A stretch of 64,000 bases of DNA from Heliocidaris erythrogramma (lineage: Eukaryota; Echinodermata; Echinoidea; Camarodonta; Echinometridae). The DNA lies in the NCBI GenBank assembly GCA_025617745.1, contig CM046870.1, positions 22,611,501-22,675,500 on the forward strand, read 5' to 3'. Positions 5,377 to 36,656 of the stretch are shown here, one piece after another; positions within the stretch are counted from its first letter, which is position 1; the number at the start of each line of letters is the position of its first letter. Made by a program: the position numbers and the translations under genes. Under the pieces are notes generated by a model that was given only the letters and a program-made list of their open reading frames with translations, had not been told where the DNA came from and did not search any database.

Positions 5377-5680
5377 ATACCATTGCCTGAATGCGGTGAA
5401 CAGCCTATCCCCATCATTCCAGGGAGAGCTAACCAGAGGGAGACCCAGAAGGCAGCTGAGAGAGGGATCTAGACCAGGGACCCCTCTGACAAGATGCCAC
5501 CACCACCACCGCCGCCCCCACCGGGGCCTCCTCCCCCACCCACCTTGAGCCAAGCTAACACAGTCCCGCCCAAGCTTAACAAGAATGAGCAGAAAGGCAG
5601 AGGGGCGCTGCTTGGGGACATTCACAAAGGAATGAAACTCAAAAAGACAGTCACAGTGGACAAGAGCAAGCCCGTTCTAG
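5377..5680 (+). CDS. WIPF: WIPF coding exon 1: 5' UTR end, polyproline start and WH2 domain
   Basis: A pyrimidine-rich tract ending in TTTTGCAG gives an acceptor before 5377. The first 117 bases of the exon are 5' UTR and contain an in-frame TAG 27 bases before the ATG, so ATG 5494 (context GACAAGATGC) is the start. The 62 codons begin with a run of prolines, then SQANTVPPKLNKNEQ, then GRGALLGDIHKGMKLKKTVT, which is the WH2 actin-binding helix plus LKKT motif (residues about 36-53). The donor is CTAG|GTAAAT, phase 1. At least one more upstream non-coding exon must exist; I could not locate it, and it may lie before the window. Confidence 0.95.
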
Positions 5681-8600
5681 GTAAATGTTTCCTGACTACT
5701 GAATTATCTCATTCCAATATAGGCGTAATACTGGAGCCACTGGAGCAATGGGTGAACTCAATGTCACCCACTTTCAAATTTCTTTTCTGCAGTGTTGAGC
5801 AGTTGGTGTTGAGTAATGGTCATGCAGTTGCATCGTGAGAAAAAAAGTGCATAGAATTTTATTGGTGAAGGTTCATTATCTAGTAAGTAAGAATAACTAG
5901 CCAGCATATTTTGGGGCAGGATAATTGACAATGAATTTTCCTATGAAATATAGGAAATCATCCACCTAATATCTGTTCCCTTCGTTTTCTTTCATCTTGG
6001 AAGGTGCATCAAAACCAGGTGGAGGAGGAGGCGGAGGAGGAGGGGGAGGAGGTGGAGGTTATGGAGGAGGAGGAGGAGGAGGAGGAGGGGGCGGAGGAGG
6101 GGGCGGAGGAGGAGGATTTGGAGGAGGAGGAGGAGGAGGGGGTCTTGGAGGGCTCTTTGCAGGAGGAATGCCCAAATTGAAGCCATCAGGAATGAGAGGT
6201 GGCGGCGGCAGTTCAGGTGAGATTCCATTAAATGGTCATCAGACAGTTGCTCCGGTGACATCTGCCCTGGCGACATGTTTCCTGGGCCTTATTCTGTCAA
6301 ATGTGAAGGGTTAGGGCTTAGGGTGCAGTCAGGTTTGAGGTTAGGGGTTATTTATTTTCAGGGTTGAAGAGAGACATTTCTTGGAAATTAACAGGCCTGC
6401 TCAGAGCAATTGTCACCAAAGCAGATAGTTTAACAATATCTGAGAATGATGCATGTATCGTCATATTGTAAGAAGGAAGGATATACTCTAGAGGGCAGAA
6501 AAGGGAAACAATGAAAATGACCCAGACGATGCATTTAGCTTGAATACATGATACCCCAACAAAGTGGCACTAACTGAACTAAGCTCAACTACGGTGACTC
6601 TTTCAGAGAGATCCCATATAAAGTACAAGCTTATGAGAAAAAGCATGATTGAAGTAATGTTAATACCTGAAATTAGAAATCGAAATGCAAGAAATGATGT
6701 TCAGAATTTTCATGTATTCTTATGTGCACACTGTGCCAATTATGTGATCAGAGAGGAAGCAGGGAGGGACACACATAGATATACATTATGAGGGACACAT
6801 TATGGATATTATGGATATACATTATGTTATAATCATATTTGTATGTAATTCCCCACTACATAAAAGTGGAGTAGATTTCAGTCGGGAAGTTCGTTTAAAG
6901 AAATGCATGTTGGACACAAACAGTGTAGCCTACACAGGAATCTGGGAGCACACTATTTATATTTAGCATCCTAACTTTATCCCTACACAATATATCATAA
7001 AGGTACTGTTAATGTTATGATCTGGAAAATCAAAATGGAAGGTAATACTCATTGCTGTTAAAAATCGAAAGGGTCAAGATATAGAATTCCGTAACTTTTT
7101 AATTTTTAGATACACCTATTCTTATACAACACTCTAAAAGTTTGCTTTGGCCCAAAGCATCCGGAATACCTACATTGTTCAGAACTCATTGAGTTAATGA
7201 CAAATTTTATAATAATAACTTAGTCTTTAATAGTCACCATCACCACTAAATATCCTGTCTTACAATGGATTTGATAACTTATAAATATCTCATTAATGTA
7301 ATTGTCTTCTATTATATTTCCATGGTTGGAAATTTTCATAAGGGAAATAAAGTTCCCACTTAATTTTTTCAATACATGTGTATAGAGAATTGAAGCTGTG
7401 TAATTGTAACAATGCAGTTATGGTTGTAATGTGAATATTCATGTATTAGTGCTTCTGATTTGTCATGAAAAATTGATTAAATTTCAGTTAAAAAGCGAAA
7501 TACTGTAAAACTAGAATTTTCGCGTTTCATGCCGCGAAATAATAATATCATACATGTAATTAAAACAATATAAAATTATTGTAATTCGCCAAAGTTTCTT
7601 GCTGCAAAATCGGCTGTCATTAACATTTTGCGAAAGGTTTATGTCGCGAAAGTTTTGTGGATTTACAGTGGACTGGAAAATGTTTTTTATAATGACTATG
7701 TCTTTCAAAGTTATATTTTTACAATTTTAAGCTTGCTCATTTTTAGTTTGTGTCCTCCGCTCAATATCCATATTTCCATTCATATTCCAAATCTTCCATT
7801 ACTAGTATTCCTTGAAACCAGTGTTTTTATTAAGGCTTGTTCAAATACTTCCTCAGTTTTTGACCGAAAGTCATGAAATTTGGTACACACATTGGTCTAA
7901 CTGGGAAGATGTGTACAACATATTTTTTGGATGTGTAGGAAGCTGCGTTGCCATGGAAATGGCATATCTATGGCAGTAAATCAGGGAAAAATCTTGCGGA
8001 TCGAACTACTTCCTCAGTTTTCGACCAAAAGTCAAGAAATTTGGTACACACATTGGTCTTGGTGGGAAGATGTGCAAGACATATTTTTTGGATGTGTCGA
8101 AAGCTGCGTTGCCATGGAAATGGCATATCTATGGCAGTACAGTAAATCAGGGAAAAATCTTGTGGATCGAACTACTTCCTCAGTTTTCGACCAATTAATC
8201 ATCATCTTCAGTGATATTTCTAGTTTAGATCCATAGTTGACTGCTCAAAATGAATGCCCCAAACAGCCACATTTCTTTGATATTTTGTTAATGAAATTAT
8301 CAAGTAACTAGCACTTGAGAATGCTGACTCCACAGTCTATAGATATATTTGATTGCACTGGAGCATGTTTAGAGGTTGATAATACTGAGAATGCTATTTC
8401 TCTCTTTGCTTTCTCTAGCACAATCAAGCACACCCTCATTACATGCACCCTCGTCAAACCATGTCAATCACAGCAGCAAGGGTCCATCAACGTCACCTCA
8501 ACCTCCCAGAAAGAAATTTGGTAATGGTGGAAGCAAGCCCAGCGGCGGACCTCCCACTTCACGACCATTACCCCCTTCTGGAGGGGGCTCGCGGCCGCTG

Positions 8601-11600
8601 CCCAGCCATCCCCCACAGAACACTCACAACCCAGTGTCAGCCAGAATTAGTAATAGAAGCAGCAGTAATGGCCATGGGGCAGACCGGGCACCTCCCCCTC
8701 CACCTCCTAGTAGTAACAGACCCAGACCCTCATCAACAAGTTTACCCCCTCCTCCCCCATCATCAATACCATCCTCAAAACACTCAAACAATTTTCCACC
8801 ACCCCCTCCCACATCATCTATACCCCCAAGGAAGGGGGGAGCACCCCCGCCCCCAAGGAGAGATCCCCCCAAAGGGTCGATGGCCCCGCCCCCACCCCCT
8901 CAAGGGAGGCATGATAATAAACTACCCAATGGTCCCAGTACAGGTCCACCACCTCCACCGCCTACGAGGCAGCCCCCTGGTGGCAGGCCGCCCCCGCCCC
9001 CGCGAGACGGCCCCAGGCCGGGAACTGCACCACCACCACCTCCGCCTTCTAGAAATCCAGGCCGGCCGCCATCAACAGCTTCGAATTCAAATAGGCTGCC
9101 ACCGCCGCCGCCTAACAGAACGTCAACTGGTCCATCAAGTGCCCCTGCTCCTCCGCCTCCATCCAGGGACAAAGGAAGACCGCCATCAATAGTGGGGCCA
9201 CCCCCACCACCACCACCCTCAAGATCACCAAGAAGTCCCCCTGCCAGGGATTCAGGAATTATGAATGGAACTGGTAAGTACTATGCATGAATTTCTAATC
9301 TTCCCGCAAATATGTTTTGTTATAATGCCACAGTAGAGAAACTGACGGCAAAGGTAATGGCATGTTATTCAAAGATTAGTTTTGGTTTGACGTAAGGACC
9401 TGAAAAGTATGCAGTTTACAAGTACCTTGAGGTTTACACGGATACTCAACCGCGAGAGGGCACCGTGATTGTTACCTGATCATGCCGTTGCCTCGTGGGG
9501 CGCAAACTTCGGACAGACGAGTCGATGTGCAACATGCACGCTCCGCTTGAGCTCGAGCTCTCGTGCGAGATTCGGTCGGCTGCGTGCAGTCCGAAATGTA
9601 ATCCCAGTAGTCCGACGGACGCGTTTGACGCACAAACTTTGCGTACGAGTGAATGGGGCTTACGCAGTCCTGACTTGCCCCACGACCGCCTGGTGGCGTA
9701 TCATGGTCCATATTCTACATGTACTGATGTTTAAACTTTTGGAATCTTCCAAATGATAAGAAATTGACTACACACAAATGTTCGGCCCAAACATTTTAGC
9801 TCTATCTTGTCTTATTTTGAATGTGAGAGCATTTGAAGAGCAATCCTTTTCAGGGGACATATCTATAGATGATAATCTTTCAAACTAACATGAAAAGAAT
9901 GAGAAAGCTTGCAAATTATTTTTTACCTTTCCTAGAACTCAAGCTTCCCTTTAAAGTACCAATCACCTACATGTAAAAAATAATTTGTGTACAGTTAGAA
10001 TGTTTAAAAATCAACCTCAGAACACGTTACCTGACCTTCTGTGGGTTAACGGTTATTGAGTATGAAGAAAGTGAAGGAAAGCATAAAACCCCCTCGCGCG
10101 GAAACAAACTTGGATTTGGATATGGTGCGGGCCCTTATTCTCTGTGAACATGGACATGTGCGTCCTCTAGTCTCCTCCCAAGTCGCTGTATTGTTAATTG
10201 GGAGTGTATTTCAACCTGCAATATCTCTTTATAGAATCAACATTTGAAGCTCATATTTCAACTGTAGTATAGTGACATGGAATTTCTAACATACAGAGCA
10301 AAATACTTTTTGGTGATTGGTACACTCTGTTTGTAAAATGATACTTGTGTTAATGCCCGTCGACTTGTAAATCTCAATCGATGATGCACATGTATGTAAA
10401 ATTGAATCTATGTGTTGATATGTGTTTAAATCATTTTTTATGCCTCCGCCCACCGAAGGTGGGTGCCGGAGGCATTACTTCTTATTGACCCAATGTCAAA
10501 TTGTAATACTTTTTTTTTTGTCCCATGGCCATTAATTGTATCCCCCGGCAGAATGCCAGAGGATACTTTGGATTCAGCAGCATTTTGCTGCCGCCACCGC
10601 CGCCGCCGCCGCCGCTGCCACCGCCACCGCCGCCGCTGCCTCACATTGTTGTGTGCACTTTAGCGATGACATTTCTCAACTGATTTCTTTCAAACTTTGT
10701 ATGGAGGTGTATCTTGGTAAAATCTAGACACCTATAATTTCTGGTGATGCTGCCCCCAGTGTTCCGTCGTTTATAGGGTAAAAGGCCATATTTTTTGGGA
10801 TAGATTGTGTGCGCTCTAGCGGTCACATTTCTCAACGGAATTTGTTCAAATTTTGCATGAAGGTGTCTGTTGGTATAATCTAGAAACCTATAGATTTTGG
10901 TTATGCTGCCTCCAGTGTTCCGCCTTTTATAGGGTCAAAGGTCATATTTTGATAGATGTCTTGTGTGCACTCTTGTGTGCGCTCTGGCGGTCACATTTCT
11001 CAACGGATTGCGTTCAAATTTTGCATGAAGGTGTCTCTTGGTGTAATCTAAAAACCTATAGTTTTTGGTGATGCTACCACCAGTGTCCCGTCTTTTATAG
11101 GGTCTAAGGTCATACTTTGGAGGATGGGGTGAGTGCACTCTGCAGGCCACATTTCGTAATGGATTTCTTTCAAATTTTGTATGGAGATGTAACTTGGTAT
11201 AATCTAAACATCTTTACTTTTTGGTGATGATGCCCTCATTTTCCGTCCTTTATAGGGTCAAAGGTCATATGTCTTTTGTGCGCTCTAACTTCCACATTTC
11301 TGGATGGATTTCTTTCAAATTTTATTTGGAGGTGTGTCTTAGTGAAATCTACCCATATTTAGTGTTTGCAGATACTGCCCCCAGTGTTCCGCTTTTTATA
11401 GGGTCAAATGTCATTATTTGGTTGCATGCATTCTGGAGGACACATTTGTTGACCGATTTCTTTCAGATTTTGTATGGAGATCCATCATAGATTACTCTAG
11501 ACCTCTACAGTTTTTGGTGATGCTGCCCCAGTGTTCCGTCTTTCATAGGGTCAAAGGTCATATTTTAGTGGATATCTTGTGTGCGCTCTGAGGTCACATT

Positions 11601-19166: not shown

Positions 19167-22100
19167 AGGGGGTGGGGAGGGAGGGGGGTAGGAAGGATAT
19201 AGGGGAAGGAAGAGGTACAGTGTACATGTACAGAGACTGACGGGCTGAAGAAAAAGCATTATTTATAAACAAGTAGAAAGAGAGACAGACAGAGATACGT
19301 TGGAGGAAGAAATGAAGAGAAAGAGAGTGCAGAGGCAGTTTGGAACATTAAATTGAGAGAGCTCTGTAAAGAGAGGGAGAGAGGAAAGTGAAAGGATACA
19401 TGAAGTTTACATGTATGGAAGAAGAGTTTTCAACCATTGACATAGACTACAGAAATTAATAGGCATTTTAATGTGAAACCAGCAATAAAAACTTAAATGA
19501 TAGCTTTGTGGAAATTCCTTCCTTCATTGAGCTTGAAAGACGAGAGAAATATTTACACTATTACCAAGTGTCCCATGCTAAAGTCATTAATGTTACTTGT
19601 GATCTTTATTTAAATGTTGCAACTTTACCATCCAGTTTGTGGGCACTCATCGTCTAAAGTCAAAAAGTAACACAGAGTACATATACTTGTACTACTTATT
19701 GTCTGTTTAGAGCCAGAAGGACATTAACTCATAGACATGTCCTTTAAAGGGATACTCAGTAGCAGATTGTGGATGTTTTTATGCCGCGAGAGGGCACCGT
19801 GATCGTTACCTGATTATGTCGTTGCCGCGCAACATGCATGTTCCGCCTGAGCTAGAGTTTTCGCACGAGATTCGGTCGGCTTTGTGTAGTCCAACGGACG
19901 CGTTTGACACATAAACTTTGTGTACGAGTGAATGGGGATTACGTAATCTTCCCCACGGCCGCCGGGTGGCGTATCCCTTTAAGACAGAGTTAATACCCTT
20001 CTGGCTATCAACAGACGATATATTTTTTAAAAAGTGTGTCTCACAGCACTCTTTGGGTGCAATATTTGAGTGTTTGCCTGTAATGCAGAGTTCCCTCCAT
20101 AATTCATACACATTCTTTATTGCTTTTTCTCTGAATCTGTATTATGAATTGCTTTCCTGCTCAGCGGAGTAAGCCAACTTCTGGGGTCTATTTTTAGACT
20201 GCAAGATGCATCTTCCAGTGTGTTTGAGGTATTATGTCTTACGTGTATTCTTGATAGTCAGAAGCGTGTTTTGGAGATGAGAGTGGAACGTTATTGCCAT
20301 TACTGTCTTCACTAATTGCATGTGCAGAGATATCTAATCCAGATATTATGAAATTACATTATAACTGCTCAAATGCAGTGGATTTAATGAATTTGAAATT
20401 AGCCAGATCTGTTTTTCAGGGCTTTTTGAGCAGCACTCTGTAAACTTATAAGTACTTGCATGAAGTCTGGTTGTACTTTGAAAGCACGGATCCCTGTAAC
20501 TGTGTAAGACTATTAAGTTGCAATGTGGAGTGTGATTTTATACTTGTGACTAGGCAATGGGCATTGAATTCTGCGTTGGCATTTGTTTATTTTGAAATGT
20601 ATTAATTCATTCATGTATTCATTTGTTTATTTATTTATGTTTCTTTATTCATCATAAAAAACTAGCAATTAAAAAAAGTAATTCAAATCTAATCATCAAT
20701 ATTATGATTGAAATACACAGTGTCACATTAGCAAAAAAATAAATTTGAATCACTAATTGAAAATAAAACCCCAAAACAATCATGATTTAAATCTCGCTTT
20801 GACTTTTTTGCCAGCCATGCTTATGCATGGCTGGCAAAACACCTGGATATTTTATAGCAAATGCAAATTTAGGAATGAGCTATCAAAAATGAGTGTTTCA
20901 CATAATGAGATAGGAAAAGAGAAAGGAAAATATTTGGAGTCTATCATGATTTTTCTTCATTTATTTTTTTTCCAGTTATCAATATACAGGGGAAACTCGA
21001 CATAATGAGGTCGGCTATAACAAGAACATTGTCATGGTCTCAAATTTACTTGCGTGTAATTCTATGGTGGCCGGAACCTTTATAGGGAGTATAACAAGCT
21101 AAATCTCGTGCCTCTAAAACAAAGAAAAAGATTGGTAATCATTCCCGTTATAACGAGCAAGCAAATTCACACTGGACCTCAAATGGACAAAAATCATTCA
21201 GCTGACGAATCTGCACACACATAAGCATATAGTAGAGATCGCGATGCGAAGCGGGGTGCGTCTGTTTATTTGTATCACACACACAGCGCAGGCAGGGTCT
21301 TTTAATTCGTTTCACACACACAGCACAGGCAGCGTTTTTTAATTTGTATCACAGCGCAGGCAGTATCTTTTTATCCGTATCACAGCGCAGAAAGCGTCTT
21401 TTTATTCATATCATAGCGCAGGGAGACCGGCCCCCCGAAGTGTGAATGAGAGGGTTTTTTTTGTCTTGTCTTGCACTGCACAAAAACGCCTCACAGTGGC
21501 TATCGACGTGCAGACCATCATGCAATCGCTATAGCGCTAATTTAAAGTTTATACTTTTTTTTCATACCATGAGTATGCTTTGCTGACAGTACAGGCGCAG
21601 TCCCAATATTCAATGCGGAAGTGTGATGGACTCAACTCTTAGTCGGGAACTTATCATCAGAAAATAATGCTTTTAACTCAATTTCCGACATGATCCGATA
21701 GTTTATTAGCTAATTCGAAAATTAATGTACCGTATTATTAATGCCTTCATAGCTTTTCAAATGAGTTCATGAGCAGAGGCAGAATAATATGTACATTCAT
21801 TATTAGTGTACATGTAGAATCTATATGTGCATTTTTATGTATGTTCTGATATGACAATATAACGGCTATAGCGAGGAAAATCCTTTGGTCCTGACGGCCT
21901 CGTTATATCAAGTTTCCCCTGTACCTTGTACATGTATACCTTTCCTTGTAAATGTATTGACAAAAAGGTCAGCAAACCGGGTATCGAAAAGAGATATTCT
22001 ATCTGGAAAACTGATCAGGGCCCCGTTAAATGAAACTTTATTATCAGTAACAACTGCCACATTTCTATTACAAAGTTTGCACTCAGCTAATCAGATGCCA

Positions 22101-25100
22101 GTATTTCAGTAGCTTATAACTGTTATTTTAACTTGTCATAGATATCAAATCTACATGTATTAAAACCAATAAAGAGAGTAAATAGTTTTAATACACATGC
22201 ATACCCATACCGGTATCTGAATCCATTAATTAACCATTACACATCGGCATAAATACTTTTTATCTAGCAAAGAATGATCTGCATGTGTAAACAGAAAGCT
22301 GTAAAATAGTGAATAACATGTGCATGTACGTGTGAAATTTGCATTGAATGGAAGCCTTACATATTGCAAAGAATAGAAAACTTCAATTGAAGTAGACTTG
22401 ACCTTGAATGATTGCCCAGGCATCCTCGAGTCAGAGAGACAATGTCATTGCTAAATTCTGATCCAAGATTGAACAGCTTTTCATTCCTTGCTACAACACA
22501 CATGTATGAAACAACTGTAGAATTAGTCTGCAAGTACAGACTCTGATTGAACACTTAATCAAGTACATTGAGTATTGAGTCAAGCCTTAGACCCAGCTTT
22601 ACTATCTTTGTATGCATATTGCCACCCCCAAGATTACCTACACATGTATGTTTGACTCCTGAGTATTTACTCTTTCTTCGATATCTACATGTACATTCAT
22701 ACACTTCTGACACTGACACTTCAGTTCCTGTGATGTTCTGCTCTCACAGCTCCAATATAACATTTGATCAGTGTGTCTTGAGTCTAGCCTAAACCAGGCT
22801 TACAATAGATGTCCAGAGAGCAGCTGCACTACTACATGTACATGTACACATATACATGTAGTCTACAGAGTGGATAGTTCAGACCCTGTGTTTATGTGTC
22901 ATGACAGACAGGGGTTTGTGCTTGCAAACTACTATAGCATATTCAGGAAGAGCTTTTCAAAGACAACTCTCGAGCAAAAAGCAACAACAACAAAATAAAA
23001 AAAAAAAAAAAACAAGAAACCAGTTAATCATGTTGCAAAGTTAGTTTGATCTTTGAATGATGTGATATATTTTTTTTTAAATATAGAATGGAAATTCTAT
23101 AGCTCTCAAGATTGGTTACTTAAGTTCTTGTTATTTGGCAGGAATTCAAATTTATAATGAAATGTGTTTCCTGATTGACATTAAATGAATTGAATAAATT
23201 CATCATTTTTATTACATTGACAATCTGACCCACATGATGGCCATTTGCCAAGGTATAACATTTTTAATGATTATGATTACTATATTTGTTTATTTGTCCC
23301 CTAACAAATTCTTGTTTTATAGATCTATTTTAGTCAGAGTGGCAAACCCTAGAGATTACCAGTAAATACTTTCAGGCCTACATGTATATCTTGTCTGTCA
23401 AAAGAAAAGATTATTGTGTAATGAATCCTGTATGTAAAAACTGCTCAAGGGGGCAGATTGGTTTTAATGTAGATTTCAGTGAGAAATTCTGTTTAAGAGA
23501 AACGAAAAAAGTGATCTGTATTGTAGACACATGGTCTTTCTATGCAGGTGGACCCTGGAACAGGTTCACTGTGTTTGATATTTAAAGAGGAGATGAAGCT
23601 GATACATGTACATACATACAATTATGTTGTGCTTGTTCTTGCACTAGCATCGTAGTGAAGTGTTCTGACCTTTCCAAATAACTGTAATGATTGTAACTCT
23701 AGAGGGGGTAATTCACTTAATACTGTGGACTAAGGTTGCAAACATTTGCAACATCAGATTTTGTTGTTATTGAATGCAAATACTCATTAGAAGCCATAAA
23801 CTTTTTGCACTCAAACCTGGATAGAGAACCTGCTCATGGGAGATGATAAGAAGTACAGTGTAGTTATTTGCACAAGTCACTCTAGTCAATCATGTAGCTT
23901 TTATTGAGAAATACTGTTCAAGGGTAGGCTTTATCCAGTCATAGAGGCATGTTTCTAAAAATCGACATTTTTCTTTTTTCTTTTTAAGGTTGGGGTTATA
24001 TACTATTTGTATCTGTATGCAAATAGTATGCAAATTAGCTGCCTTAGCTATATTTTAATACATTTTTTTTTTAGAAATATGCCTCTATGACTGGTTAAAT
24101 AATGCCTACCTTGTTCAAGGGACACAAAAAATGTGGCCTTTATACATGTAGGCTTGTGATATTTCTTGGTGATTGCTGTCCAGAGCAGGTTTGACTGCAT
24201 TATTTTCACAAGTCGAGAGTGGTAATCCCTGAAAATACTCCTCATTTACATTCCTGTGTTGGTAGATTATTATAATAAATATTTTTAAGTATAATTGGCA
24301 TTTTACACAATATCAGTGTGTTTGTGATGCTGAGAGATGTAAAGAAGAGTAAAATTACTGTTTTTGTTCATAAGAGCCTCCCGTTTTAAAGATTTTTCTT
24401 TGGGAAAAAAGTGTGATTTCTCTTTTGCAATGCTCTGAAATAATGATTGAAATTAAAAAACCATACGTGAAGCCTAAAGATGTGGGGTTATTCCAGGCAT
24501 GATAAAGTTTCCGTTCACAATTAGTTTTTAAGGTAAATCACTATCATATTTCATGAAATAACAAATTCATAAATTATGATTGCCTCAAAGAGGCCATTGA
24601 AATTTTCAGTTACATGTACTTCTAAATGTAAAAGTAAGATCCTACAGTACTCTATTTTAATATTGTAAAGGCTCTATCATATTCTCCATGTATATCTCCT
24701 AAGAACAACCATGCCTAGATGTGTTTGTAAATTTGGAAACACATCACGTCACTGTTTAAGGAATTGTTTCAGTGCTTTCCAACATACTGTATCTACAGTA
24801 AGCTTCACCTAGCATTGTTTCTGATGCCTAATGAATTTTTCCCTCGTAGGCCCTCAGTGAAAAAAGTTGACCTTGGTTACTTGTGAGTAGGTTGTACTAA
24901 TCACCAATCCTTTATTTGGCATGTACATCTGCGCTAGCTAAACCAACTATTACAATCTAACTATGTCCCAAATCCATAAAGCGTTTTAACCTGAATAGAG
25001 ACACTTGTTGTGTGACACCGTTAACACCATTTAATTAACAGCTGTCAGCTATGAAAGGTGATGTCAGCTGGCACAAGTCTCTGTCCATTGCTGCGTAGGT

Positions 25101-28100
25101 CGCAAACCGTTGAGTCGCCCCAGCTACACGTCATGCTGTCCCCCTTGCACTTCCTGTGAGGTCAGTGAGTGTAGGTTGATTGGATGTGTAAGGTCTCGGA
25201 AGCACTTGCTATTCGTACACTAAAGACCAACGTTGCAGACGTAGCTTGTTCTTGTGCACGCTGCTTACGCAAGGTTCTTTCACGTCGAAGACAATCCTAG
25301 AAATCGTACTAATTTTGCCTTTTCTACTTGGATTTAAACAGAGGAGGAGGACTGCTCACTTGTACAGGACAAAGTGATTTAGTCGTTTAATTATTTTATC
25401 GAGAGCTCGAAGGAAAGGGGAAAGCCATGACGAGTGGGAATCGACGCTGGGGGTTCAATGGGTATAATGGGTATAATGTGTATGGTGCAGGCCAAGCTAC
25501 TAATAGTACAGGTAGGTCTTTTCCGTATTGGAGGAATGATTTCTGTTTTAAGCCAGGCTTTCAAACTAACTTTGTGGACCCTACATTCCTCTCTTTTTAA
25601 AGCAGTAAAACATCTGTGTCAAAGCATACACAAAAAACGTTGGCTTCATAATTTTGCCTGCAGAGATTGCTCATTTTTGCTTCATAAAGTTAGGAGCCTA
25701 CATGTATGTAGTACATGTATGAAGTATGAAATGAATGGAAGGTTTTGTCCATAAGAAATGGATTGGAAACTCTTGCAATATCCTTGGTTGAAAGAAAATG
25801 GCATATTTCCTATTGACTCTGTTTCGAAATTTTGAAATGATTAATAGCCACACTTGGTGTCTTTTTAAAAAAAAAACTTCACAAATTTGCGCTTTGATTG
25901 TAACAATACTGATGCATTGCGTACTATTCTTAATGCATCGCAATCTTGTATCTTCGAGCTTGTTGGATTTTACCAGGGAGCTGTGATAGCTCCTTGATTT
26001 TACTGCAGTTGATACATTGTTTACAGATACACATGTATGTGTTTACCTTTATGACAGGGTGATAGAGATTCAAAGTTACAATTACTTGCTGCTTTTGCAA
26101 GTATAAAGTTAGTCAACATCAACTATTTGCAGAGATACACAGTACATGTACCTGTAGAAGATTGTGAACTTTCAACTTTATAATGTTGTAACATTATATT
26201 GGTCTCATGACGGTTTTATTTCTTGAGAATAAAGATTATATTGGTCTCTACAGTCTACACTCTGTTTAAAGGGCAATACAACCGTGGTAATAAGATGATT
26301 TGTGTGAAAGAAAAATAAAAACAGGATGGTGAAAGTTTGAAAGAAATCGGAAAAGGAATAAAAAAAGTTATGGATGTTTGAAAAATGAGATCACTACATC
26401 TATGCGAATTTCAAATTGGCAATTTGGTGAGTCGATTGTGACATACTTGTGGACAACTCTCCCGTTTGTCGTACACATAAATATCATTAATTTGCAGTTT
26501 TTCTCCGAAGTGCCTTTACCCTCGGGGTAAATATATTGGAGATAGCATATTGTTATAGATCTTCAGGAAATAAAAAGATTCTACCGAGTAATACATTTTG
26601 AAAAAAATAACATTTTAGCCATTTTGTGTGTTCGAGTGAATGGGGGAGTTGTCCACAGCTACATCACAGTCACATTACCTATTCAGCCAATTAGAAATTC
26701 CCATATGTGTAGTGATTACAACTTTCAAAAATGCATAACTTTCTTATTGCTTGTCCGATTTCATTCAAACTTTCACCAATCTGCTTCTTTGATTTTTGCT
26801 CTTTATTTCAGAGCAAATTATTAAGGTAGGATTTCCCTTTAAATATATTTTCAGAACATTTGAAGCTTGTGTCTGAGCTGAGCAGTGAATACTAATGCAA
26901 TGGCTCAATCAGATCAGTGTTTACAATTCATGATTTTCATGAATAGGGATTTCCCCTAAAATAGTTTTACTACGTGCTACAAGTTTTATGCCTGTATAAA
27001 AGGTAAGGAACAAAAACGTTTCTAAAACAGAAATATCATATTGAGTAAGTTCTTCCGAGTATTTTGTGGCTTACCAAAGTGAAACTTAATCTTGATCATA
27101 AGTTAGTTAGAGAGAAACAAAATTACTGAAGTCTTACAGAAAGTGAAAGTTTGACAAAGTCTAAATCTACTTCTTCTTCTTCTTCTTTTTTTTTTTTTTT
27201 TTTTTTTTTGGGGGGGGGGGGTGTTTTTGTGCACTTTTGCTCTAAAATCTTACCATGAAAGTCTTATTTGAATATTTTGCGTGCTTTCTGTTTCATAATT
27301 GGTTATAAAAAGATGTTAAATATAAGTATTGCAGCATTTGACTGAGACATGTCAAGATATACAAGGACTCAAAGATATTTTTCTTTGTTCAAAGCTATTC
27401 TTCAAGTGGTTCCACTTATCCGTTATTTGTGTCATCCATGTCAAAAGTACATACATACCAGTTGATATTGATAATGTTCTATTGAAAATGGTGATAAAAA
27501 CCATACCATATTTTGTTTGAATAGATTTATTGAATTCAAACTTTAGTGTAGTCAAGAAGGTTTCAGATAGATACATTGACAACAAACTGCTTGCCTTCAT
27601 ACTCAGTCAAAGTTTATAGAACTTTATATGTGATCATTATTGTTTGTTTCAGGTATATTTTATAACCTCAAGCTATCAAAGCTACATGTACATGTATATG
27701 TTACCAGAATTGGTAGGTAACAGAAGACTTTAAACCACAGCTGCTTTATCTCTTTGCTGTTTTATAGTGCCTCAAGGAAACACTTATTACGTAAATGAAC
27801 ATGAACAATTGAACAAATTCATGAGTCATTCTTTCCAGATCAGTTTCGTAACTCTTGGTCACACAAGTTAGCTCAATCTAGCGGGATCCTATGCAACCCC
27901 CTTTTTGTTCAACTGCCAGAATATGTGTAATGTATGTATAAATACATGTACACATGAATAAATATTTCTATTGTATCTTTCTTGCTCGCAAGTCACATGC
28001 TTGCTTTCTTTCTTTTCCCCCCTAAAGAATGGCAGGTGCTATATGGGTATCGATGATGTAGAAACTCAAACTGCAACATGTAATCATGACTTTGCATTTT

Positions 28101-31100
28101 GCATCAGAGATATTTCCTTGGTAATAAAGTAAAAGTCTGCCAAGAATATATTTCTGGAAAGAGGAAATCATGCAATCAAGTCCTCTTTCTTCTTATAACC
28201 TAAACTGTAGAGAAATTTCCCCATGGATCGTAGATGAAATTAAAGCAGTACACTTATTTTGAAGTGATGTAAATGACTGAAACTTTAGTAGAACATATAT
28301 AGTGTAAAGGTGTAATGCAATAATGCACTCATAATTTGGCCTCGTAGGAAGAACTCTTACTCTATGCATGTAGAGTTGTGTATTGTTTCCATGAAATACT
28401 ATTGTAGAAAGAAAAACAAATGAAGCTACAAAATCTGTGTACATGTATATACATCTTTAAATGAAGCTGTGTGGTACCTGCATAGATCAATAATGCAATG
28501 CACGGTTGTACAAACTGTTTCTCAGGGTCGGCTCTATTGTGTAGAAATATTGATATCTACTGCGTAAAGTTACAATTAATCTTAATGAAGGTACATGTAT
28601 ATTGCAAATACATCTGACGTACATGTGATAAGACTATATCCTATGACTATGTTTAATCTTTCTTCACACAAAGATCAACCAAGAAGGGAGTTGGTTTTTT
28701 TGGTGGGGGGGGGGGGGGGAGGGTTACCCCTCCCCTCTTCTCTAGCAATGCCTCTGACTCGGTATGTTAATGTCTCATTCTCATATGGTTCTCACATGGT
28801 TTTTCTTCATAATTTCTCTCTCCTTTCCAGCAAAAAAGGATTTTGAGTGTCTGTTCAGGTTTAATTTTTGTTTTCTCTCTCCTTTCTACCAGATGATTTT
28901 GAGAGTCGGTTCAAGTTTAACTCATCCTCACGCTTCCCTACGCCTCCAACTTACAAGAAGTCACCGAAGACGTATCCAAGCAAACAAACAAATAGACAAA
29001 GTGAGTATTACAATCCACACAGGGTGTAGAGACTTAAGGCCTATATTCTCAGAAGCTGCCCAAGTTAAACCTAGCGTAACTTGGATCATTGATTTATGGA
29101 AGGCAAAATATCACCCCTACATGTTTGTTCTGCAAATTAATGTAATTACGGTACTTAGTTTAGCGAAACGGAGTGGCATGAAAAGATGCGTCCAGAAAGC
29201 AAATGGCAAAATTGTTGGTTATAGTGGTGAATTTAAAGTTGTAGTTTAACATATACATGTGCTTACAGTTTTGCTTATTAAAGCTAGGGTTTTTTTTTAA
29301 CCCACCCTATGGCTCAAAGATATGTTTTTACCTTTATACTGCAATGAAATTATGATTTTCAACAATTTGCATTTTGCATTCTGGATGCATCTTATCATCT
29401 TACCTAAGCAACAAAATAAAGAAAATTGATTTGGTCATGAAATGAACATTAACAAAAAAAAAATGATTTTATGCAGTTTTTGTATGACATCTATAATACA
29501 GAATGATCATGGTGATTTGTACATTTGGCATTGCATAAATCCGCAAACTAATTCTATGCATGGAGGTGGGGTTTGACCTTGCCCAAAGTTAGGGAGCTTT
29601 CGAGAATATGGGCCTGGACCCGCAGCTATGCGGAGCCCTAGAAAGATGGTGCCAGGGCTCCGCATGTTTCTGGACTGCAATGATGTAACTGAAGGATGAG
29701 TGTTTGATTTAATATGGAATAAGTTTATGGGAGCCCACTCCTTTCAAACCTTTAGGGATGGGGTGGTAATGTCATAGAACATGAGTCACATACAGAAAAC
29801 AGCAATTTGGCAAGTATTGGCCAACTAACTGAGCTTACAGCTACATCATACATTTATAGAGGAAAAGAAACAATGCAGAGTGTTCAGTAATTCCATACAT
29901 TAAAACCCAGAAACAGGTTTTGTATTTACTGGGGGCATTTTTTGGCAAAAGACTCAAAATTTTCTCAGGGCTATTTGATTAAAATCTGTGTTAATATGGA
30001 TATAGTGTTTAAGAGATTTTGTACATTGTAAGCCAGTGACACACATTCTCTTTATGGGGGCAATTTCAAGAATTAGGGGGCAATAACATTTAATTTTTCA
30101 AGGGCTATGGTGAAACCAAGCTAAACTTGCTTTAATACAGTGTTTATGCATGACATGCTGTCAAATGAATTTCACAATACAGTGACACATTTTTGGATAA
30201 TTTAAAGGCCAAAATATCTCCGAGTCCCCATCCATTTATCTGCACCGTTTGTATTCAAAATGAACTCTAGGTAGGGTAAGAAAGGCAGTTTAAATGTATA
30301 GTAACAAGAACAGTAAGAACCTCGTTCATCAAAATAGTAGATTTTTCTCTTTAGTTCGACCACATTTCATTTTCCATTTTTATGATGTAGGGCAATCCCC
30401 CTTTGTTACATAGAGTCATGTGAAGATAATATGAAGACTCAAGACCAAGCACCCATCATAAAAATGTCACAACACTTGAACAGTCGTCAAAACTACAGAA
30501 AAATATCAGTTATAGAAGCACGCTTTTGTAGATACAAGTCATTTAAAAGTATTGCATCATTGTGGGCAAACTCAAATCATGTTCATGACAAATTATTTGA
30601 AATGTCATGTGTTCAATGAAAACCAACTTTCTTGGAGGAATATGCATCTGGTTAAAGATCATAATCTGTTTTGTAGTCCACCAGACTCTATTTGTTCATG
30701 TACTCTATACTGCAATTGAGTTAGCTAGACACAATACTGCTGTCACTTCCTCATTCCCTAGTCATCATTATTTTCATTTCTATGTTATGGTATTACCATA
30801 ACAAAGAAATGAAAATAACGATTCACAAATGTGTCATGTCATCAACTGAGAGCCTCAAAGGTGTTCTATAAAAGCTTTGCATAGATTTTCGTTTCATCTG
30901 ATGCTCGATTAACTTTGTTTTTATTTCAGACATTAGCTCATTAAGAAGTGACATTGCATATTTTGTTGCTGTTGTTTATTGTTACCAGTTCTCTAACATT
31001 ATCTGTCCCTTTTTTGATGAAGTTCCATAACCACATAAGTTTGCCTTTGTAATAAAACTAAATGTAATTCCATTATTAAAGTGTTAGCAGAATAGAATTT

Positions 31101-34100
31101 CTATTCTCAAAATCAGGATCCGGTTTAAAAAATATAACTTGAAAATTGTTCTGCCGCCTACAAGGATGTGTAATTTTGAATGTCATAGAATTAGAAACCT
31201 ATTTGAAATAGGACTACAAGAGTTGGGATAACACAAAATCTGTGGTACACATCCCCACCTTTCCCCTCATACATTTTGCATTTAACAATCTACGTCATAC
31301 ATATTGGCAGATTGGTATTTAATGTATTTACCCCGGTAGTTAACGTACATGTATCTCTGAACCTTTGTGTGTTTGGTACCCCCTTAGACAACGCTTTCTA
31401 GTAAAGCCTGTATTTCCTGTTAGTACCGATTGTGTCCAATATGTTATTGTAAAAAGGTCACCCAATGATGTGTGTCTGCTTGTTTTTTTTTTCTTCTTTC
31501 TTCTTGTTAGAATTCTTTTCTTATGTTTTTTAAACTTTTCCTTGTTCCTCCTTCATTTCTTTGATAATTTTTTGTGTTTTACTAATTCTCACTTCCTCCT
31601 TTGCTATGTTGTTCATGTCTTCACTATTCCAGTACAACAATTTCATCGTTGTAAAAGGAGTTAACAAATGCACACAATGTGCTACAAATATTCCATCGGA
31701 CACAACAAAATGGGACCAGTAGTACAATGTACCTTTACTACAGTAATCACTAGTTTGTTAATTTATAAAAATTCTAACTTTTAAACATAGTTGTAGGCAG
31801 GCTGATTATCCTAAATTGTTCACGTATTATGCACAATTACATTAGTCACCATCATTATTTCAGGAATTAACTGGTTGGCTTTTAGTTATTTTTAGATCTA
31901 TAAGTGTACAAAAAAAAGAAATAGATGAACGTGGAGCTGAGCATCAATTTCATACTTAAAGCACTGGTACAATATACTGATTCTATTTTTATTTACACAT
32001 ATACATGTATGTAGTTTTCAGCTTTGAGTCCCATAGACAGTACAATTAAGAGATTGATGAGAGCTCATCATATTGAACATTGGTTGTTTTTATAAAAGGA
32101 TTATTTTGGACTTATTTTATCACAGTTTTGTGTGATAATGAATTGATGAAACCATAGAGTAAACTATCTGTCAAGTTTTTAAATATTTAATGATAAATTT
32201 CACCATCATTTAAGTCCTTTTATTTTCTTTAATGGGTATTACTTTTGGTGGACCAAAACATTTTCTTAAAGGTGAAGTTGAGTTCTGGTCATACGATTAC
32301 ATTGTGAAGGTAACTGTCTCAAAGCAATTGGGAAAGGTTGAGCATCATCAAAATGATAAGAAATTTACACAATCTTGCTGCAGAACACATGCACTACACA
32401 CAGAAATGGATGTATGGGACTGTACACACATATGGCATGAATGTTCGGCCCGAACACATCAGCTTTTTCTGGTCATATTTCGAATATGGGGCACTCAAAG
32501 AGCAATCCTTTTCAGGGGAAATTTCTACGATGATGTTCTTCCAATCTGGCATAAAAGGAATGAGAAAGCTCACAAATTATTATTTTGACTATCCCAGAAC
32601 TCAACCTTCCCTTAGATTGACCTCAGGGCTTCTTTCTTTTTTTTCTCTCTCTTTTATATTTTTTTCTGAGATTCCTTTGGGAATTCCTAAAGCTAAATTG
32701 CTTTTTGCTGCTTCTGTGTAATTTTGATTTGCATTCCCTGGTCTATGTAAGTACACACATTCATTCAGGCTTGTCAGCAGCAAATTTGTTTACCCATGGT
32801 CCAAATTGATTGACATGATCTTGCATGTAATGTAGCCAGTGTTATGCTCACCAATGCAGCATTGTTGTGCACTGGCGGGGAACCAGGCATTCGCTTGGCT
32901 CAGTGTAACACAATTTGAAAAGATTGATTGAATTGCTTACATTTGTGTAACGGTTTGAGATCTGGGATACTTTTACCACAGTTTCACTCCTCCTGTTTAC
33001 GATAACGTCAGTTTGGAGCCGGAAGGGCATTAACCCTGTACAAATGATGGGATTTAATGCACTTTTGGCTCCAAAGATACGTTAAATAAAAAAGTGTGAA
33101 GTAGTGGTCAGTCATGCCTTGAATTTTCAACATGTATACAGGTATGGCTCAGGCGTCATGGTAGAAATACGGTATGACTAGAGATGTGAGTTATACCAAC
33201 AAAACTTTCTTAAATCGCAAAAAAGAGATCCCTGCAGAAAATCATATGCATGATTTTTCACTCTGTATAATTTATGTTTTCAATTTGTATAATATATTTA
33301 AATTGTTGAATGATGCTTCACCTCACAGTTATACCAATGATACTTTTCAATTTCAGTTCCATGCAGAACTTCCAACTGCATGAATATTTCATTTGTTTAA
33401 ATTGTTGATATATATTTTATAGAGAAATTTTTAAAATTGCACTTCATAGTTACACCAATAGGTTCAAAAAAACTTGGACAACTGCATAAAAGATCCAAGC
33501 AGAATATCAGTTTCATGAATATTCAATTTGTATGATTTTTCACTATATTTTTTTCAGTTTTTGATATCATACTGGAAATTTTATTGCCATTTCACTGTCT
33601 GATGTCCCTATGCTATGCAAATATATTATGCAGCTCTTTCTTGCACTCTCTTTGCACCCTGCCCCCCCCTTGCTATCAGACTCCGCTATGTACTTTACAT
33701 CTGAGCAAGTGAACGCACATTCCAACGGTGAGTGCGGAGGCGACAGATTTTGGCATGTGCATCAACTTTTTTTGGAGGTCCCTGTGTGCAAGCTCCTCGT
33801 ATTAGTTTACAGTTAAGCCTCTTTCAGGCGTGATGAATTAAACCTCCTTTAAAGAAATGCTGTGACAAAACTTTGTGTGTATTAAAATAAAATGGCATGA
33901 GACAATATTGGGGGGCGGTCCGGGGGTTGAAAGCCAAAGCTGCAGGCAACAATGGCTTGTATGCGTATTCACAGATCTGTGAGTCAAGGAATATGAAGAT
34001 GTGAACTGCAGTAGTGGCGGATCCAGGATTTTGTGAGGGAGGGGGCCCCAATAAAAAAAAATGTTCATCAGCGGCCCCCCTGGATCTGCCCCTGAACTGC

Positions 34101-36656
34101 TGTTAAACCAGACAATCTCTTGTGTATAGAACTTGCACAAATTTTGCGAGTGGTTGCGATTTGCGAAACTTCATGCCTCAAAATATTACAAAAAGATAGA
34201 ATCACAACAACTAAACTTTCTTTTTTCCCAAGGAAATGGTGGTCATTAACAGTTCGCAAATGTTTCTGCTTTTTAGTTATCTCATGTCATCTTGCTACTG
34301 GTACTTGACAGCATTTTTTAAAAAGTGGTTTTATAACTTTATGTCGGAATGAGCCTTTAACGTCAGATTTTTCTTGCATGATGGAAGACACTTTGCACTT
34401 TGATCAAGTTTCCCTTTTTCCATTTCCCTCTATTTTCTATCACCTGTAAGTGGTATGGGTAATACTTCTAAGAATGGAACAGGTTGTCAATAGGTGTGCA
34501 TGCTTTTGCAATAGGATTCTTTTATTCTTTTATTTCTCATTAGCATCCTTAGTCCCACATGCAGAAGATTTAGGAAATACATTTGAAATGTATGAAATGG
34601 CATGCTTTTGCAACAGGGGATATGGACTTTCTGTGAATGCTGTTACATAATTTATCTAGGAGAATATCACAAGAAGTGCAAAATATATTGACATTTCTTT
34701 CCATTATCTCTCTTTATTATGGCATGCTTTTTTGGTGCTCTTTCCTCTTTTCATGATCTATAAAATGAATTCATTAGAAATAGAAAAGTGGTAAAAGAGG
34801 GAAAACTCACATGGAATTGAAAAGTTATAAAACATGGAAATTTAGAAACTATTTCACATGATACTGCACATTTTATATCTGACACTATAAATCTAGATTC
34901 TTGACCTGAGAGTACACTGTATACACTGTATACTCTGCATCAAACTCTCAGTATCATTTCCATGTCAACTACCTCCCCACAGAAAATAACTCATTCTATA
35001 TATCGGATTTATCAAAGCATGAATCGCATCATGCCAAAGAAAGATTGAGAAATATACCTGAGCTGAATGCCATTTTGCATGTTTTAAGGCATTGTGCATG
35101 TTGAGCATCATCAAGATTGCAGTTATAAGTTTTGAAGCTTGCATTTTAGAAACATTCTTGACACTGCACATTTGTAGGGAATTTCCTTCAAAGAATAAAG
35201 GATTTGAATACAGTTTTGTGTAAGATTTTGAACATGGGTTGGAAATTTTTTTTTTAGAAAAATGAAAGAACTTTCTTTACATTATTTTTCTAACTTGTAG
35301 TCTGAATATTTGTTTTTAAGGATCTAATGTCTTTGAATAATTGCTTCTGGGTGTCATCAAATGGTTTTCTGAAGTGCTGAAAATGGAAATAATTCTCTAC
35401 TTTTAAAACTGTCCATTAATTTTTTTCATGGTTTTGTGGTTAATTTGTTTTGCTTTGCTTTTGGGAGTTTTAAAATTTGAAAGTACATTATTATCTAATT
35501 TATTTAGTTTCGGAATGATTGCAAAGTAATATTATTTATTTTTTAGCGTTTGCGATTGTGGTGCATTCAAATTATTTTCCACAATTGATCAGAGGTTCTT
35601 TCCATTCTTGTGTTTTACTCTGATGAGTGTCTGTATGTCTGTATTTAAAGGCAAAGTCCACCCTAACAAAAAGTGGATTTGAATAAATAGAGAAAAATCC
35701 AACAAGTATAACACTGAAAATTTCATCAAAATAGGACGTAGAATAAGAAAGTTATGGTATTTTAAAGTTTCGCTTAATTTTGCAAAACAGTTGTATGCAC
35801 ATCCTGCTCAGTATGCAAATGAGGGAACCAGTGACGTCACCCACTCACTATTTCTTTTGTATTTTATTACATGAAATACGAAATATTTTAATTTTTCCTT
35901 GTTATAATGTGAAAGAAGGTTTGATTCCTCGCTGAACATGTGTAATTGCCATTGTTGCAACCTATACACAATTCAATGAGAGCTTTCCGAATTGTGAAAT
36001 CTGCAGAAATTAAAATATTCTATATTTCACATAATAAAATACAAAAGAAATAGTGAGTGGGTGACGTCACTGGTTCACTCATTTCCATACTGAGCAGGAT
36101 GTGCATATAACTGTTTGCGAAATTAAGCGAAACTTTAAAATACCATAACTTTCTTATTTTACATCCTATTTTGATGAAATGTTCAGTGTTATGCTAGTTG
36201 GATTTTTCTCTATTTATTCAAATCAACTTTTTGTTAGGGTGGACTTGGCCTTTAAAGCCTATTTTTTTAATTTTACTGATCACCTCTTTATTGATCAGGG
36301 TCCTGTTTCATAAGACTTGTTATCAATAACAGGTTGCACTGTTATAAGCTACTGAAATCCTTGCATCTGATTGGCTGAGAGCACATTTGTCATAGAAATA
36401 TGCCAGTTGTTATTGATAACAAGTTTTATGAAACGGGGGCCCTGAAGCTGGAAATACTAGGATCATGTGAAAACACTTGTTCTGGAACTTTCTTTGTGAA
36501 GCAGAGACAGTTGTTCACCAGTCTGATTAGATATGAAACTTAACTTTGATTCCACTTCATTTTTTGGACTAATTTTTTTCATTTTTTGTCTTCTTCTCTC
36601 TCTTTCTGTTTCCAGGTACAAAGAGAGGACAGCCCCCTGCACCACCCAGACAATAA
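5494..36656 (+). CDS. WIPF: WIP/verprolin-family protein (WAS/WASL-interacting protein), full-length five-exon model
   Basis: The join of 5494-5680, 6004-6216, 8419-9273, 28893-29000 and 36616-36656 is 1404 bases, or 467 codons plus TAA, close to the ~500 residues of vertebrate WIPF1. All borders are GT/AG and all introns are phase 1. The order is an N-terminal polyproline stretch, a WH2 motif with LKKT at residues 49-52, a glycine-rich linker ending in GGLFAGGMPKLK, a ~285-residue proline-rich region, and a WASP-binding tail with ESRFKF and TYPSK. Known family members bind actin through WH2, profilin and SH3 proteins through the prolines, and the WH1 domain of WASP/N-WASP through the tail; they act in cortical actin assembly. 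The vertebrate paralogue (WIPF1, 2 or 3) cannot be assigned, and an invertebrate is likely to have one pro-orthologue. Introns are about 0.3, 2.2, 19.6 and 7.6 kb. Confidence 0.95.
6004..6216 (+). CDS. WIPF: WIPF coding exon 2: glycine-rich linker
   Basis: Acceptor TTGGAAG|GTGC and donor TTCAG|GTGAGA, 213 bases, phase 1 on both sides. It encodes ASKP, about 40 residues of almost pure glycine broken by one Tyr and two Phe, then GLGGLFAGGMPKLKPSGMRGG. Vertebrate WIPF1 has the same Gly/Phe linker followed by the conserved GGLF-GMPKL block directly after WH2. The glycines are coded mostly by GGA and GGG, so the exon is itself a trinucleotide-rich tract likely to vary in length. The antisense leucine-rich frame is a shadow of this exon. 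Confidence 0.93.
6236..6429. mobile_element. Possible inverted-repeat element with TTAGGG-like interior
   Basis: CAGTTGCTCCGGTGACA and CAATTGTCACCAAAGC lie around AGGGTTAGGGCTTAGGG. It begins 20 bases after the WIPF exon 2 donor. The similarity to 16475-16675 is partial. Confidence 0.35.
7847..8192 (+). repeat. Tandem ~163-base repeat, two units plus a start
   Basis: ACTTCCTCAGTTTTTGACCG starts units at 7847, 8008 and about 8173. Units hold AAATTTGGTACACACATTGG and GCGTTGCCATGGAAATGGCA. It is in WIPF intron 2; frames through it are not coding. Confidence 0.75.
8419..9273 (+). CDS. WIPF: WIPF coding exon 3: large proline-rich region
   Basis: Acceptor TTTCTCTAG|CACA and donor AACTG|GTAAGT, 855 bases, phase 1 on both sides, 285 residues. 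It starts AQSSTPSLHAPSSNHVNHSS and continues as blocks of 4-8 prolines spaced by Ser, Arg, Gly and Asn. Examples are PPRKKFG, SRPLPPSGG, APPPPPPSSNRP, APPPPRRDPP and PPPPPPPSRSPRSPP, ending in RDSGIMNGTG. In WIP proteins such blocks bind profilin and the SH3 domains of adaptors such as Nck and cortactin; individual sites here are inferred. GC content is far above the surrounding intron. The long reading frames in the other frames here are shadows. Confidence 0.95.
9436..9705. mobile_element. MITE family C, copy 1
   Basis: ACGGATACTCAACCGCGAGA, then GGGCACCGTGA at the left, and GGCGTATCATGG at the right. It is CpG-rich and shares GACGCGTTTGACGCA and GTACGAGTGAATGGGG with 19744-19982. Confidence 0.65.
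9720..9958. mobile_element. MITE family A, truncated copy
   Basis: It carries GATAAGAAATTG, AATGTTCGGCCCAAACATTT and the right end AGAACTCAAGCTTCCCTTTA. The left third is missing, next to the family C element at 9436-9705. Confidence 0.6.
10438..11832 (+). mobile_element. Tandem-repeat modular element, complete copy
   Basis: It starts with a hairpin-forming ATGCCTCCGCCCACCG / GGTGCCGGAGGCAT end, then a (CCGCCG)n-like tract at 10588-10640. Six to seven ~165-base units follow, each with TTCAAATTTTG, GTGATGCTGCC and TATAGGGTCAAAGGTCA. It ends in the TGGACATTTCTAGTTA terminus shared with the copy at 1-712. No coding capacity is seen. Confidence 0.8.
12031..12498. mobile_element. Foldback element with ~115-base arms
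   Basis: The left arm (AAATAGCGTTAAACACGGAC, then CATAATATACTAAAATACT) is the near-perfect inverse of the right arm ending GTGTTTAACGCTATTTTCCG. Arms are 12036-12151 and 12381-12496, with a 230-base loop. Confidence 0.72.
12678..13053. mobile_element. MITE family A, copy 2 (TTAA flanked)
   Basis: TTAA on both sides. Ends are AAGAGAAGGTTGAGTTCTG and, inverted, AAGATAAAGTTGAGTTCTGG. Same orientation as 4035-4434. Confidence 0.78.
13556..13930. mobile_element. TTAA MITE (family D), copy 2
   Basis: It shares TTTGGTAACTTTATGGAGGC, ATTTACGAAAGCGTATGGCC and AGGCCAGGCAGCTCAGAT with the copy at 1600-1981. The right end is TTAA; the left TTAA is lost. Confidence 0.75.
14335..14719. mobile_element. 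TTAA MITE (family B), copy 2
   Basis: Inverse orientation to copy 1: TTAATCCTTTCAGGACAGG at the left, CCAAAGGGTTAA at the right, shared CCTCTTGATGTGTTGCCAAT. Confidence 0.75.
15943..16473. mobile_element. Inverted-repeat element with GTCACTTTGTGAAAACA repeats
   Basis: GTTACTGTTTTCTCGAAGTG and CACTTCGTGAAAACAGTAAC are the ends. The interior repeats TTTGTGAAAACA and CGACGGCT near 16170-16290. Confidence 0.65.
16475..16675. mobile_element. Short inverted-repeat element with TTAGGG-like interior
   Basis: TGTTCTGGCGACAATT and AATTGTCGCCAGACGATA are inverted ends. The centre has several TTAGGGTTAGAGTTAGGG-type words. A similar, less clear relative is at 6236-6429. Confidence 0.55.
17905..18043. 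mobile_element. Short inverted-repeat element (family E)
   Basis: GGGGAGCGTTTCATCAAG and CTTGATGAAATGCTCCCC are inverted ends. The centre has GCTCTCAGCCAATCAGATGC and TTTCAGTAGCTT. Confidence 0.7.
18663..18677 (+). promoter_or_regulatory. X-box-like (RFX) motif in WIPF intron 3
   Basis: GTTGCCGCTAGCAAC is a near-palindrome that fits the GTNRCC-N(0-3)-RGYAAC form of RFX sites. It lies in about 200 bases of non-repetitive, GC-richer sequence (18600-18850). A match by chance is possible. Confidence 0.3.
18850..19200 (+). repeat. (GA)n microsatellite region
   Basis: Several GA runs; the longest is at about 19119-19160. The Ser/Leu-rich frames on the - strand are its shadows. Confidence 0.9.
19698..20022. 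mobile_element. Small hairpin element (family F) split by a family C MITE
   Basis: Outer inverted ends TGTCTGTTTAGAGCCAGAAG and CTTCTGGCTATCAACAGACG. The inner insert is at 19744-19982. Undisrupted relatives are at 48328-48411 and 33005-33082. Confidence 0.65.
19744..19982. mobile_element. TTAA MITE (family C), nested copy
   Basis: TTAAAGGGATACTCAG at the left and GTATCCCTTTAA at the right, with TTAA on both sides. The interior has GCGAGAGGGCACCGTGAT. Confidence 0.72.
20985..21923. mobile_element. Non-autonomous mariner/Tc1-type element
   Basis: TACAGGGGAAACTCGACATA and, inverted, TACAGGGGAAACTTGATATA, flanked by TA. No transposase frame. The interior holds an imperfect ~50-base repeat (ATCACAGCGCAGGCAG) at 21262-21420. 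A related fragment is at about 44870-44990. Confidence 0.75.
22013..22140. mobile_element. Family E element, diverged
   Basis: It has CAGGGCCCCGTTAAATGAAA at the left and the family centre CACTCAGCTAATCAGATGCC and TTTCAGTAGCTTATAAC. The right end has decayed. Confidence 0.5.
25080..25426 (+). promoter_or_regulatory. Putative internal WIPF promoter and 5' UTR
   Basis: This ~350-base stretch lies between AT-rich intron sequence and the ATG at 25427. It has several CpGs, an ETS-like CACTTCCTG near 25148 and no repeat relatives elsewhere in the window. No clear TATA box is seen and the transcription start is unknown. The role is inferred from the downstream ATG exon. Confidence 0.35.
25427..25511 (+). 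CDS. Candidate alternative first coding exon of WIPF (short isoform)
   Basis: An ATG (context AAAGCCATGA) opens 28 codons reading MTSGNRRWGFNG, then repeated Gly-Tyr-Asn, then GAGQATNST, followed by donor ACAG|GTAGGT in phase 1. Joined to the WIPF exons at 28893 and 36616 it gives 234 bases: 77 codons plus stop. That product has the WASP-binding tail but no WH2, glycine or proline regions. About 350 bases upstream are non-repetitive and richer in CpG than the flanks, as expected for an internal promoter and 5' UTR. The N-terminal peptide matches nothing I recognise. The alternative is a chance ATG plus donor, because no transcript is available. The evidence is positional: phase match, good donor and upstream composition. 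Confidence 0.55.
26266..26842. mobile_element. TTAA MITE, foldback type
   Basis: TTAAAGGGCAATACAACC and, inverted, TTAAAGGGAAATCCTACC, with TTAA on both sides. Inner parts are also inverted (GGTGAAAGTTTGAAAGAAAT against ATTTCATTCAAACTTTCACC). Confidence 0.75.
27173..27222 (+). repeat. TTC repeat followed by poly-T and poly-G
   Basis: (TTC)n, then about 24 T, then 10 G. Comparable G or C homopolymers occur at 15891, 17528, 28704, 54758 and 60244. Confidence 0.85.
28893..29000 (+). CDS. WIPF: WIPF coding exon 4: WASP-binding core
   Basis: Acceptor CTTTCTACCAG|ATGA and donor GACAAA|GTGAGT, 108 bases, phase 1 on both sides. It encodes DDFESRFKFNSSSRFP, then TPPTYKKSPKTYPSKQTNRQ. Vertebrate WIP has DEWESRFYF, then a proline/tyrosine stretch, then KSYPSK. 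This is the part known to wrap around the WH1 domain of WASP/N-WASP. The two conserved blocks (ESRF-x-F and YPSK) are intact and the spacing is similar. A decayed partial copy of this acceptor and exon start lies 59 bases upstream. Confidence 0.95.
32266..32614. mobile_element. MITE family A, copy in inverse orientation
   Basis: Starts TTAAAGGTGAAGTTGAGTTC, contains CAATTGGGAAAGGTTGA and GAATGTTCGGCCCGAACA, and ends CCCAGAACTCAACCTTCCC. It lies in the last WIPF intron; the two overlapping reading frames here are not genes. Confidence 0.75.
35645..36255. mobile_element. Large palindromic TTAA element
   Basis: TTAAAGGCAAAGTCCACCCT at the left has its inverse AGGGTGGACTTGGCCTTTAA at the right. 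Both ~300-base halves are near-perfect inverted repeats, sharing GTGACGTCACCCACTCACTA in both orientations. It lies in the last WIPF intron 360 bases before the final exon. Confidence 0.82.
36296..36445. mobile_element. Family E element
   Basis: CAGGGTCCTGTTTCATAAGA and GTTTTATGAAACGGGGGCCC with centre CTGATTGGCTGAGAGCA. It sits 170 bases before the final WIPF exon. Confidence 0.7.
36616..36656 (+). CDS. WIPF: WIPF coding exon 5: C-terminal end and stop
   Basis: Acceptor CTGTTTCCAG|GTAC. The split codon A|GT gives Ser, then TKRGQPPAPPRQ and TAA at 36654-36656. Vertebrate WIP ends in a similar basic-proline tail (RRERGAPPLPP). The phase matches exon 4. The 3' UTR begins at 36657. Confidence 0.93.

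Follow-up and report, generated by a model that had tools for sequence, protein, structure and literature searches.

The window, i.e. the whole stretch of 64,000 nucleotides of Heliocidaris erythrogramma DNA analysed here, carries on its plus strand a gene of the WIP family (WIPF), which codes for 467 amino acids once five coding exons are joined and whose product shows the domain order WH2, Gly-rich region, Pro-rich region and WASP-binding tail. The leader and the WH2 domain are encoded by the first of these exons (5377..5680, ATG at 5494), followed by the Gly-rich exon (6004..6216), the Pro-rich exon (8419..9273), the exon with the WASP-binding tail (28893..29000, acceptor CTACCAG/AT) and the last coding exon (36616..36656), which contributes STKRGQPPAPPRQ and the stop codon. 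The N-terminal WH2 domain matches PF02205 with an E-value of 7.7e-12 (44.8 bits, cut-off 23.1), as is characteristic of WIP/verprolin proteins, and, like WIP (WIPF1), WICH (WIPF2) and CR16 (WIPF3), the protein has its WH2 domain first and its WASP-binding tail last. All introns in the coding region are in phase 1 (coding bases per exon: 187, 213, 855 and 108). On a metazoan splice matrix the donors of the WIPF exons score 1.4, 7.8, 6.7 and 4.1 bits and the acceptors 4.2 (5377), 2.8 (6004), 7.2 (8419), 8.6 (28893) and 11.1 bits (36616). Intron 3, which separates the Pro-rich exon from the tail exon, is 19.6 kb long. In proteins of the WIP family actin and profilin are handled by the WH2 domain and the prolines, and WASP is held by the tail. 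Elsewhere in the window there is a reverse transcriptase open reading frame on the minus strand (52347-53393, RVT_1 E 5.5e-36), probably from a retroelement, and an array in which a 170-base unit occurs eight times (96% matches, 46074-47431).

The WIPF tail aligns with human WIP chains of solved structure (9s9x_B, E 2e-4; 2ifs_A, E 0.013), which identifies it as a WIP-type C-terminal tail, and in the best match 16 of 37 paired residues, counted by eye, are identical to the human tail. Each of the four WASP-binding segments of the WIP tail that are named in a review (PMC7407642) has a counterpart, namely DDFES, FKFNSSS, RFPTPPT and KTYPSK, the last one retaining the lysine that closes KSYPSK. 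The tail start DDFE is common to CR16, WICH and the WIPF of the window; in contrast, the polyproline core, LPPPEP in WIP, WICH and CR16, is altered to FPTPPT. The complete WASP-binding tail claimed in the initial annotation is borne out by the alignment and by all four segments, with an altered polyproline core.

Upstream of the tail exon, the plus strand contains a tandem copy of its acceptor and first codons (28813..28864). Aligned with 28872-28920, this copy is identical in 42 of 49 columns with one gap of three bases (alignment score 54), whereas the best score in a comparison set of 297 pairs of neighbouring blocks at fixed offsets in the intron is 45, the top two of these pairs being tandem repeats at about 21.3 kb. 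The duplicated acceptor at 28831 reaches 8.4 bits, close to the 8.6 bits of 28893, and of the 1172 AGs counted in intron 3 it is among the two best. As 28831 is out of frame, splicing to it gives a predicted WIPF of 498 amino acids with a scrambled tail. Acceptor 28831 could compete with 28893 for any splice to the tail exon, and the duplication (28813-28920) is a possible switch to a tail-less WIPF. The duplicated tail-exon acceptor is described here for the WIPF of the window and may set it apart from WIP, WICH and CR16.

Deep in intron 3 lies a candidate first coding exon (25427..25511, plus strand). As had been noted initially, it opens with an ATG at 25427 and, after 28 codons plus one base, ends in a strong phase-1 donor (CAG/GTAGGT at 25511, 7.0 bits); the exon coordinates confirm that phase 1 is the phase that fits the WIPF exon at 28893, and the join of 25427-25511, 28893-29000 and 36616-36656 indeed yields 77 residues, MTSGNRRWGFNGYNGYNVYGAGQATNST followed by DDFESRFKFN...PPAPPRQ. 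Such a phase match is roughly a one-in-three event. Including 25511 itself, 2 of the 1202 GTs of intron 3 score at least as high as this donor, and among the donors of the assembled WIPF a single one, that of 7.8 bits, is stronger. An in-frame stop at 25388-25390 bounds the frame upstream; therefore, the ATG frame is part of a first exon unless its exon is entered from a nearby acceptor. Of the marks of an alternative-promoter isoform, the candidate exon shows a fitting reading frame and a plausible donor, and its predicted product, which contains the tail and lacks the WH2 and proline exons, has the single interaction region of a microProtein.

Pfam returned nothing above the curated cut-off for the 77-residue product, the one weak match being ECM10 (E 0.076), and Rfam found no structured RNA at the gathering threshold in 24000-30000. 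Searches with the 77-residue protein gave 137 pattern stretches in prokaryotic contigs and 18 in viral contigs, none of which was confirmed, a result that has no bearing on conservation in animals. By eye, another frame of 25427-25445 reads DEWES, the residues with which the tail of human WIP begins. A relic of a second WASP-binding exon was considered for this stretch; it is absent from the best 14 of 170 matches to the human tail and shows no further likeness, and we attribute the resemblance to chance.

The candidate exon had been chosen by a reader who surveyed the whole window, and its rarity has to be read against that background. In a strict test (at least 28 codons and a phase-1 donor as strong), 25427-25511 is the single ATG exon found in intron 3; 200 dinucleotide shuffles of the intron gave a mean of 0.08 such exons, with at least one in 6% of the shuffles. 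A looser test (at least 15 codons, donor up to 2 bits weaker) again gives one exon, with 0.865 expected. When the strict test is extended to all phases on both strands of the whole window, it is passed twice on the plus strand, by 25427-25511 and by 33610-33727, and by nothing on the minus strand; lowering the cut-off by 1 bit results in nine passes (five plus, four minus), including one over the Pro-rich exon. The second strict pass, 33610-33727 (plus strand), which served as chance control, is a 39-codon ATG frame of the last WIPF intron that has a phase-1 donor of 7.1 bits and lies in CpG-poor surroundings (3 CpG in 33227-33727). Because of this second pass and the nine passes at the lower cut-off the excess over chance is slight, and the candidate frame is only modestly rarer than chance.

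The exon is embedded in a GC/CpG-rich patch (24901..25600) with up to 20 CpG per 400 bases. GC content is 0.47 and the CpG observed/expected ratio 0.79 in 25000-25499, as compared to 0.29-0.39 and 0.00-0.35 in 22000-24749 and to 0.30-0.36 and 0.18-0.70 in 25500-28749. The window has 12 CpG peaks, nine of which overlap self-repeats of the window, and the peak at the candidate exon is one of the three that do not. When 25000-25800 was compared with the rest of the window the best other match had an E-value of only 0.52, and none of the inverted-repeat pairs listed for 24500-29500 closely brackets the patch. The other two peaks without a self-repeat, 3351-3850 and 15851-16600, show inverted repeats by eye and are perhaps small DNA transposons, implying that insertions may cause CpG peaks of this kind here; the 24901-25600 patch, too, may be of repeat or transposon origin. 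No match to a TATA or Inr consensus was found in 24900-25520, which says little in the case of a TATA-less promoter. An ETS-type 10-mer is present at 25148 and occurs twice in the whole window. Two ATGs, at 25133 and 25184, precede the candidate exon and start frames of 8 and 38 codons, respectively, and the start context of ATG 25427, GCCATGA, looks favourable. What the DNA presents is just a GC/CpG-rich patch, and the internal promoter is a proposal; promoter, enhancer and old insertion are all compatible with the patch, and we do not rank these.

The probabilities that we attach to the readings of the exon are matters of judgement, not of computation. We consider the chances to be even that 25427-25511 is an accidental 28-codon frame with a good donor within a GC/CpG-rich element of the WIPF intron and that no stable tail-only protein is made. 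The patch would then be either a regulatory element of the long intron or an old insertion into it, and the WIPF gene around it would work as usual, with the exon presumably unused. The outcome of the looser test, the control frame with an equal donor in a CpG-poor place, the frequency of CpG peaks in the window, the missing TATA and Inr matches together with the upstream ATGs, and the product without a Pfam match above the cut-off are all consistent with an accidental frame. Conversely, the strict test was passed in just 6% of the shuffles, the CpG peak is among the few without a self-repeat, the ATG context is favourable, the donor ranks among the two best of the intron, and the missing TATA and Inr matches carry little weight if the promoter is TATA-less.

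More doubtful, yet deserving serious consideration, is transcription from an internal promoter at about 25.0-25.4 kb, with a first exon spliced to the tail exons, which would result in a 77-residue protein that binds WASP only. Bringing no actin itself, such a short form would both stabilise WASP and act as a competitor of full-length WIPF. This would agree with the unique combination of frame and top donor in intron 3, with its scarcity among the shuffles, with the local GC/CpG-rich patch, with the ETS-type 10-mer and with the similarity of the tail to solved WIP tails. According to PMC3362030, which cites Massaad et al. 2011, a peptide derived from the WIP tail restored the WASP level and improved actin reorganisation in patient lymphocytes; PMC3397550 cites this peptide as well and states that WASP is degraded if WIP or WIP binding is missing. 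As far as these sources describe it, the peptide is the WASP-binding tail alone, just like the predicted 77-residue product, although it is a man-made treatment and not a natural transcript as proposed here. By analogy, a tail-only WIP is expected to bind and stabilise WASP and also to compete with full-length WIPF. Similarly, microProteins as presented in PMC7534434 are small single-domain proteins that interfere with a larger parent protein, as the short form would do, although that work concerns cereals and the case here is a predicted sequence. On the other hand, similar chance frames exist elsewhere in the window, neither TATA nor Inr is matched and two ATGs lie upstream, CpG peaks in the window often overlap repeats, and the polyproline core of the tail is altered. 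We recognised no description of a tail-only WIP transcript in the literature searched, which was judged by titles and the beginnings of abstracts and is thus weak evidence of absence.

Donor 25511 may also serve exons that are entered from upstream. The best such rival is an internal exon at 25368..25511 (plus strand), whose acceptor (3.8 bits) is the best among the 15 AGs listed at 25250-25427. Included in the WIPF mRNA it would introduce a stop and lead to a tail-less WIPF of 425 amino acids or to an unstable mRNA; entry at 25342 would give a predicted product of 431 amino acids, also without tail. We regard occasional use of an internal exon as unlikely: its acceptor ranks between those at 6004 and 5377, which the gene does use in our assembly, and its donor is strong, but the acceptor is far weaker than those at 8419, 28893 and 36616. 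The tail-less design as such is known from human and mouse cells, where, according to PMC3397550 citing Koduru et al. 2007, mini-WIP is a natural short WIP of 403 amino acids without the WASP-binding region. In its design mini-WIP is the opposite of the 77-residue product and resembles instead the predicted tail-less products of exon 25368-25511 and of splicing to 28831. As this internal exon shares the 25511-28893 junction with the short form and has the opposite product, the junction alone would be no proof of a short form.

The internal exon 25368-25511 and acceptor 28831 together provide two predicted routes to a WIPF that lacks a functional tail, next to one predicted route to a tail-only product. 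It is conceivable, if unlikely, that the WIPF locus uses an internal promoter to make a tail-only guardian of WASP, in balance with a tail-less WIPF made via donor 25511 or acceptor 28831. Finally, in-frame cassette exons from 25404 or 25413, whose lengths of 108 and 99 bases preserve the frame and which would extend full-length WIPF by 36 or 33 residues immediately ahead of the tail (to 503 and 500 amino acids, respectively), are highly improbable with their very poor acceptors (-4.1 and -2.7 bits).

If the accidental-frame reading is right and the short form is absent, the locus calls for caution, since an equally good frame and donor arise in about 6% of the shuffles of a 19.6-kb intron. 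Should the short form exist, the WASP-restoring peptide would have a natural counterpart, and the case would show a way in which an animal can uncouple the stability of WASP from the delivery of actin. Were the tail-only product indeed balanced against a tail-less WIPF, a single gene would set the amount of WASP that is held with actin versus without it.
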